Source: Verrucomicrobiota bacterium
GTDB lineage: Bacteria; Verrucomicrobiota; Verrucomicrobiia; Verrucomicrobiales; DEV007
DNA: 64,000 nucleotides
Assembly (NCBI GenBank): GCA_030625775.1
Contig: DAOUQC010000002.1
Location: 1 to 64,000, forward strand
Reading direction: 5' to 3'
Shown here piece after piece: positions 25,048 through 26,046 of this stretch. Position 1 is the first letter of the stretch, and every line of letters begins with the position of its first letter. The notes under the pieces are model-generated. The model worked only from the letters and a program-made list of their open reading frames with translations. It made no database searches and was not told where the DNA came from. The position numbers and the translations under genes are program-made.

Positions 25048-26046
25048 ATGACTGACAGCCAACATGCCCTTCTGGGTTATGACCATTACCATCAGATGCT
25101 GGGTGACCCCATTCGTATGGAGGCATTTCGTAAGGCGATTTTTGCTGTGGTGAAACCTGGTGATATTGTGGTGGATCTGGGAGCAGGCACGGGAGTCCTT
25201 GGTTTCTGGGCATTGCAGGCGGGCGCCAAAAAAGTGTATGCTATTGAAAAAACAGAAGCCATGCATCTCGCCAAAGAGATCGCTGCCGCCAATGGTCTCG
25301 AAAGTAAAATCGAGTTCATCAACCTTAACTCCATCGATGTCACACTACCCGAGCGAGCCAACGTCTTGATTTCCGAAACTCTGGGATCATTCGCTATCGA
25401 TGAAAACACCCTGCACTTTACCTGTGATGCGCGTAAGCGCTTTCTTGCCGATGACGGACAAATGATTCCGCAAGCACTAGAGCTTTTTGTCGCTCCTCTG
25501 GAGGATTCAAAAATCTATGACAAACTCGACTTCTGGCGCCATATCCCCGGTTTGGATTTTTCACCGGCCTTCGACCTTTTCACCAAAAAGATCATGATCG
25601 AGCAAGTCACGGCTGACAAACTCCTCACTGATCCCGTATCCCTGGCCTCGATTGATTTGCGCACTGTGCCCGATGGCGCTTTTGAAGGTCATGCGTTTAT
25701 TACGATGAAAAAACCAGGCGCCATACATGGAGTCGCGGGCTGGTTTACGCTTGCCCTCACGGATGAGATTAAAATCTCCACTGCTCCCGACGCACCACAG
25801 ACTCACTGGAAGCAGGCAGTTTTCCCTTTCCCTGATCCCATTGAAGTCACCAAAGGCGATATCATGGATTGGACGGTGACTTTAGCTGTCCGCGAGCAAA
25901 ATAGCGACAATACGCAGATCGAGTATCACTACCGTTGCTCACAAATTGCCCGGGAATCAGATCCTGAAGCAGCTGCGATCAGCATGAAAAACTCACCGTG
26001 CCCATGTGGATCGGGCAAGAAATTCGCCACCTGTTGTTTGAGGTGA
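25048..26046 (+). CDS. Protein arginine methyltransferase-like enzyme with C-terminal SEC-C motif
   Basis: The protein has 332 residues. The SAM site is [12 protein letters not shown] (D43 to G49 core). What sets it apart from ordinary methyltransferases is a PRMT-type double-E loop, E110 in LISETLGSF and E119 in AIDEN. These are nine residues apart, the same spacing as E144 and E153 of mammalian PRMT1. A THW loop (T252-H253-W254 in QTHWKQAVF) also matches PRMTs. A beta barrel lies between. The last 15 residues are a SEC-C zinc knuckle, [13 protein letters not shown]. The predicted role is arginine methylation of a protein; SEC-C knuckles elsewhere mediate protein or ribosome contacts. PRMTs are uncommon in bacteria. 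Confidence 0.82.
   Translation: [332 protein letters not shown]

Follow-up and report, generated by a model that had tools for sequence, protein, structure and literature searches.

The window analyzed here is a 64,000-nt stretch (positions 1–64,000) of contig DAOUQC010000002.1, assembly GCA_030625775.1, from a Verrucomicrobiota bacterium of the order Verrucomicrobiales. The gene under study lies on its forward strand and encodes a methyltransferase with the fold of protein arginine methyltransferases (PRMTs), followed by a C-terminal SEC-C zinc knuckle (Table 1). Its open reading frame (ORF) was open over 332 codons from ATG to TGA with no competing frame, and the minus strand of the same interval was interrupted by stops and contained no ORF longer than 105 aa. 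The gene was present as a single copy in the host genome.

Domain organization and fold of the protein

The original prediction described a bacterial PRMT-like enzyme fused to SEC-C, and it was borne out by profile, sequence and fold evidence together. The Pfam model PRMT_C (PF22528) matched residues 145–297 with an E-value of 1.6e-29 (103 bits vs. a cut-off of 27 bits), and SEC-C (PF02810) matched residues 315–332, the very end of the protein, with an E-value of 6.9e-8 (32.7 vs. 20.4 bits). The Rossmann part showed weak matches to several generic methyltransferase models of Pfam. In the profile searches no small-molecule methyltransferase family claimed the protein, and no NCBIfam equivalog came near its cut-off. 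Two other assignments were considered and rejected. The ribosomal protein L11 methyltransferase PrmA (TIGR00406) scored 22.5 bits vs. a cut-off of 183 and matched only the S-adenosylmethionine (SAM) core; the PADLOC defense-system match to mad2 (3e-12) was nonspecific, as it spanned only residues 14–111, which is the same core.

Among all solved structures, the best relative was yeast Hmt1/PRMT1 (4.3e-46 over residues 5–297), followed by PRMT6 (1.2e-36), PRMT3 and PRMT1. All 60 solved-structure matches listed were named PRMTs, except 8rbk, which was deposited as "MGC151858 protein". The AlphaFold2 model, built from nine sequences, had a mean pLDDT of 80.9 and a pTM of 0.79; it displayed a Rossmann domain, arm helices and barrel strands, and was poorly defined after about residue 300. 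Foldseek matched this model best to Hmt1 (E 2.9e-30), and its top 50 matches were PRMTs only. VIA-align gave Z 32.2 to PRMT4 (2.5 Å over 293 residues), Z 31.9 to PRMT1 and Z of about 32 to PRMT8, each over about 293 residues. The dimerization arm was recognizable in the sequence when aligned to EDSQYKDEKLNYWQDVYGFDYSP of Hmt1, and it was partly helical in the model. The enzyme would probably form a dimer.

The catalytic motifs listed in the original prediction were all recovered. SAM motif I reads VVDLGAGTG, the two glutamates of the double-E loop stand nine residues apart, and the THW loop continues as THWKQ (residues 252–256). In the alignment of the window protein with eight bacterial homologues, R23, G45, G47, G49, E110, E119 and T252-H253-W254 were invariant. 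The sequence and fold features of the PRMT family were present, namely the Rossmann domain with motif I and the SAM-binding arginine, the double-E and THW loops, and the β-barrel with its arm. Neither of the findings that would have refuted the original prediction, placement in a small-molecule family or the lack of a barrel and a double-E loop, was obtained. We are almost certain that the gene product is an enzyme of the PRMT fold whose active site is intact and whose SEC-C knuckle is genuine.

Table 1. Positions of the gene, its motifs and domains, and the adjacent upstream gene in the window.
Feature	Position	Strand	Evidence or remark
PRMT-fold methyltransferase with C-terminal SEC-C	25048..26046	+	332 aa; profile, sequence and fold evidence
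Arg23, alignment equivalent of the SAM-binding Arg of type I PRMTs (MLxDxxR)	25114..25116	+	Hmt1 alignment; invariant in bacterial homologues
SAM motif I, residues 41–49	25168..25194	+	Sequence, homologue alignment
Double-E loop (E110, E119); strip closest to PRMT5 (SELLGSFADNE)	25372..25410	+	Homologue alignment, strip comparison
PRMT_C β-barrel/oligomerization subdomain (PF22528)	25480..25938	+	Profile, model
Putative dimerization arm, aligned to EDSQYKDEKLNYWQDVYGFDYSP of Hmt1	25501..25593	+	Hmt1 alignment, model
THW loop, residues 252–254; THWKQ same as Hmt1	25801..25809	+	Hmt1 and homologue alignments
SEC-C zinc knuckle, residues 315–332	25990..26043	+	Profile; comparison with host SecA-like tail
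Upstream 2-oxoglutarate (2OG)-Fe(II) oxygenase gene	24258..24836	+	Same strand, 211-bp gap; context only

The knuckle scored 36.9 bits in the search of the host genome and carried the CXCX8C(C/H) arrangement of SEC-C, and its DNA pattern had no other zero-mismatch match within the window. Three SEC-C places were found in the host genome. One of them was the end of a SecA-like protein, whose tail the window knuckle resembled. No other SEC-C was detected by regular-expression checks in 72 non-viral homologous ORFs. As read from these sequences, the fusion of a PRMT core with SEC-C is what is new here, since the other homologues inspected have no knuckle. A different C-terminal addition to a bacterial PRMT was seen in a Reyranellaceae PRMT-fold protein (L129:8001-9149), which had an extra helical-looking tail of about 70 residues.

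Mixed motif characters and bacterial relatives

The motifs were compared with the definitions given for PRMTs (PMC12925635), and the THW loop was of the standard form. The type I motif YFxxY was altered: GYDHYHQML could be matched with SYDHYGIHEEML in Hmt1 only by allowing a deletion of three residues, and the protein was therefore not filed as type I. In the double-E loop, which aligned with SEWMG..E of Hmt1, the W of SEWMG was replaced by T. The strip covering residues 104–157 scored highest against PRMT5 (28.5 bits; SELLGSFADNE), then PRMT6 (23.8 bits) and PRMT1 (19.6 bits); the alignment to the PRMT5 catalytic domain shared SExLGSFA..E and FL-DDG--IP---F-AP---SK-Y. However, the barrel was closest to those of Hmt1 and PRMT9 rather than PRMT5, and the PRMT5_C profile (PF17286) reached 27.3 bits, below its cut-off of 30.3, while PF05185 passed (25.2 vs. 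22.9 bits). PRMT5 is not known to have a THW loop, which the window protein has. The window sequence contained no PLxxN and was too short for the TIM barrel of PRMT5. Hmt1/PRMT1 shared with it the domain order, fold, motif I, double-E loop, THWKQ and arm (32% identity over 300 positions). The window protein differed from Hmt1 in being bacterial, in its altered YFxxY, in its added SEC-C and in its double-E strip, which is SEWMGYFLLYES in Hmt1. Given these mixed characters, the protein was placed in the PRMT family and in no product type.

The original prediction had also regarded the two loops as defining eukaryotic PRMTs and as rare in bacteria. Their rarity was supported by a sporadic occurrence; their restriction to eukaryotes was not, because bacterial proteins with both the double-E and THW loops were found in Kiritimatiellae, Victivallis, Myxococcota and Hyphomicrobiales. 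The Rossmann half was 43–49% identical to that of the PRMT-fold genes of Victivallis, Kiritimatiellae and a myxobacterium. The proteins of Victivallis, Kiritimatiellae and Byssovorax (L125-L128) shared the motifs of the window protein and were about 48% identical to it in the Rossmann half, but they had SEWMG or SEWLG loops and no SEC-C. Among them, the protein of the Victivallis vadensis metagenome-assembled genome (MAG; L126) was that of genome G295, and the protein of the Kiritimatiellae MAG (L128) was that of genome G304; both genomes belong to the phylum of the host. The Hyphomicrobiales clade (L130, L152-L160; about 32–36% identity) shared the SETLG loop and THW, but it had no SEC-C, and its genes lay in a constant operon arrangement alongside prfB and rRNA methyltransferase genes. 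A search on bacterial PRMTs in the open-access literature, which is a part of the whole literature, returned nothing on point.

A strong PRMT-fold match (E of about 1e-29 or lower) was found in 9 of the 75 genomes of the host family. The order sample contained 22 genomes with a match at 1e-50 out of 387, the phylum 4 of 388 at 1e-70, and the order of the Hyphomicrobium locus 17 of 249 at 1e-25. In the same-genus genome G002 the PRMT gene was absent, and a different ORF lay upstream of its orthologous GTPase gene. Such genes were thus sporadic in Verrucomicrobiota and Hyphomicrobiales, and these counts, together with the absence in G002, indicated frequent gain or loss of the gene. Another genome of the same genus (G001) contained a PRMT-fold relative (L003) whose first glutamate was replaced (SDIRGILPLIDNN; SDIRG...) and which had no THW; by its sequence this is probably a changed or inactive paralogue.

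The tree comprised a PRMT7-like bacterial clade, a Verrucomicrobia clade with an HEQ loop, the Hyphomicrobiales SETLG clade, and a THW clade including Hmt1 and PRMT6. The window protein formed a long branch near the THW clade, beside rather than inside the Hmt1/PRMT6 pair, and its exact position in the tree was not fixed. A recent transfer from a eukaryote was rejected as a simple story, because the Rossmann half resembled its bacterial homologues far more than Hmt1 and the protein had its own long branch outside that pair. A phage origin was also rejected: no match was found in phage records, and viral contigs contained only distant PRMT-like proteins without THW. Initial single-protein scans of genome contigs and viral contigs gave no match. 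Many viral contigs (L045-L124; 175 places matched in one scan) encoded PRMT-like methyltransferases that matched the SAM half and had no THW. Bacterial PRMT7-like proteins (L041, L043, L044, L163, L164), some with N-terminal repeats that were tetratricopeptide repeats by annotation or by eye, were widely annotated as 50S L11 methyltransferases; the best solved relatives of L044, the one searched, were PRMT7 and PRMT9.

Gene neighborhoods

The neighbors of the window gene encoded an HD-domain membrane protein, a 3-hydroxyisobutyrate-dehydrogenase (HIBADH)-like protein, an AlkD-like protein, the 2OG-Fe(II) oxygenase, a dynamin-like GTPase, GH5, GH32 and PriA. They pointed to no pathway and gave no direct support for targeting to the ribosome or nascent chains. 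No biosynthetic genes were found among these neighbors. Rfam searches found no RNA element, and scans for promoters and terminators remained at chance level.

A functional unit with the upstream oxygenase gene was considered and rejected, given the gap between the two genes; such a gene stood beside no other bacterial PRMT gene compared. The oxygenase was without a match in 28 relatives, no solved structure was close to it, and its nearest plasmid relatives (about 29–34%) were in Burkholderiales. Weak oxygenase matches near PRMT-like genes occurred at two viral loci only (L076/L077).

Seven Hyphomicrobiales loci (L130, L194-L198, L202) had the PRMT-like gene 1–7 bp behind an RlmB/TrmH-like gene or overlapping it. 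Five of them showed the complete order of PBP1a-like, prfB, class I rRNA-methyltransferase-like, RlmB-like and PRMT-like genes, and the other two showed part of it. The operon of L130 (L130:1401-9609) provided the gene names, in which prfB, the rRNA-methyltransferase-like and the RlmB-like genes were identified by profile and PBP1a by eye. The PRMT-fold genes of this group encoded the loop SETLGNYALEEN and THW. The arrangement suggests a role of this clade at the ribosome or release factor, perhaps in its modification. This operon evidence reaches the window protein only through an identity of about 33%.

Proposed function and alternative explanations

The explanation that accounts best for the data is a SAM-dependent arginine N-methyltransferase of the PRMT fold, probably dimeric, with a protein substrate and SEC-C docking; as a whole, we consider its prospects evenly balanced. 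By homology, Rossmann motif I and Arg23 would hold SAM, and E110/E119 together with the THW loop would bind the guanidine group and orient its nitrogen toward the methyl group. The substrate would most likely be an arginine in a protein. The SEC-C module, on a flexible linker, would most likely attach the enzyme to something that SecA also binds, be it the surface of the ribosome, a chaperone like SecB or a nascent chain, in much the way that the zinc finger of PRMT3 selects the ribosomal protein uS5.

These parts differ in strength. Methylation of arginine of some kind is probable, and a protein substrate is somewhat favored. An authentic protein-modifying enzyme is likely, but bacterial arginine methyltransferases acting on free arginine exist. 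Targeting to ribosomes or nascent chains, as originally proposed, is a reasonable guess by analogy with the SecA knuckle. Escherichia coli SecA requires its knuckle to bind SecB; by itself, the knuckle sediments together with ribosomes, and it binds 70S ribosomes (PMC6620043); the ribosome and SecB role is also described in PMC8076867, where other SEC-C proteins are suspected to be accessory factors of the Sec system. For the window enzyme, we give docking by the knuckle on any of the three proposed partners (ribosome, SecB, nascent chain) somewhat less than even odds.

In design, PRMT3 is the nearest eukaryotic analogue. It combines a PRMT core with a zinc-binding substrate module, acts on uS5, and needs its zinc finger for substrate recognition in extracts and for uS5 binding (PMC10216425). 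However, its finger is N-terminal and of the C2H2 type, whereas the SEC-C of the window protein is C-terminal, which makes this an analogy and not a shared ancestry of the fingers. A stricter version, in which the window protein would be a bacterial counterpart of PRMT3 that acts as a true protein arginine methyltransferase at the ribosome or on nascent secretory proteins through its SecA-type knuckle and so marks proteins of translation or export, is speculative and would be rather unlikely to hold in full. The zinc-finger module of PRMT3, the ribosome binding of the SecA knuckle and the prfB operon of Hyphomicrobiales argue for a protein or ribosome role by analogy.

Several observations weigh against the preferred explanation. 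Catalytic activity is deduced from sequence and fold, and the type I YFxxY motif is altered. The homologues have no SEC-C, and hence the knuckle is not needed for core function. The basic residues around the host SecA knuckle are partly lost in the window protein: the host SecA tail has GRND before, FKQCC (with K) within and GRK after the knuckle, and the window protein has KNSP, FATCC and LR. Since the knuckle in SecA can also serve SecB or regulation, docking on the ribosome is one of several options. Nothing in the neighboring genes (AlkD-like, 2OG oxygenase, dynamin-like GTPase) hints at translation.

Foremost among the rivals is a small-molecule enzyme like SznE/StzE, which we take to be PRMT-like; it would methylate free arginine or an arginine-derived metabolite, and SEC-C would be a stabilizing or regulatory ornament. 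SznE, a bacterial arginine-guanidino methyltransferase, supplies N-omega-methyl-L-arginine for streptozotocin (PMC11705231), which also weighs against a protein substrate, and a 31% relative of SznE occurs in the saskemycin cluster (PMC12637814). Several bacterial PRMT-fold genes also stand in biosynthetic-looking settings, including a Pantoea plasmid cluster and polyketide synthase (PKS)/nonribosomal peptide synthetase (NRPS) contexts. However, the tree placed the Pantoea gene and the other plasmid genes that it included in the PRMT7-like clade and the window protein elsewhere; the window gene had no biosynthetic neighbors; and its arm and THWKQ loop were unusually close to those of Hmt1. SznE differs in acting on free arginine within an antibiotic cluster, a distinction drawn here from its description. 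We regard this rival as doubtful. At the Pantoea dispersa plasmid locus (L042:6238-11456), genes for an iron-containing redox enzyme and a Rieske protein lay together with those for a PRMT7-like methyltransferase (its annotation is L11 methyltransferase), a major facilitator superfamily transporter and an ATP-grasp protein; the cluster had the look of a small-molecule pathway that may start from methylarginine. In L183, L184, L229 and L230, PRMT-like domains were found within very long ORFs or PKS/NRPS genes.

Slightly less probable still, and unlikely in our judgment, is a protein methyltransferase whose knuckle is unconnected with the ribosome and instead recruits one specific substrate or only stabilizes the C-terminus. 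The absence of the knuckle from the other PRMT-fold homologues inspected fits this, but its sequence similarity to the host SecA knuckle weakly favors a shared partner. It is very improbable that the PRMT fold is degenerate or inactive here and has been retained for binding, as in TbPRMT3, which is without both loops and inactive (PMC12925635): the W-to-T change in SEWMG, the shortened N-terminal YFxxY and the lost glutamate of the same-genus relative in G001 would fit it, but all catalytic columns were intact, the SETLG variant was conserved across the Hyphomicrobiales clade, and SELLG occupies the corresponding strip of PRMT5, which is active.

The methylation of arginine by PRMTs is commonly regarded as a eukaryotic system, and to our knowledge bacterial proteomes have rarely been searched for methylarginine. 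Enzymes of bacteria in which the double-E/THW machinery is complete would indicate that this fold is at home there, and they might tell about the origin of PRMTs. The SecA-type zinc knuckle offers a concrete, testable guess at the substrate.
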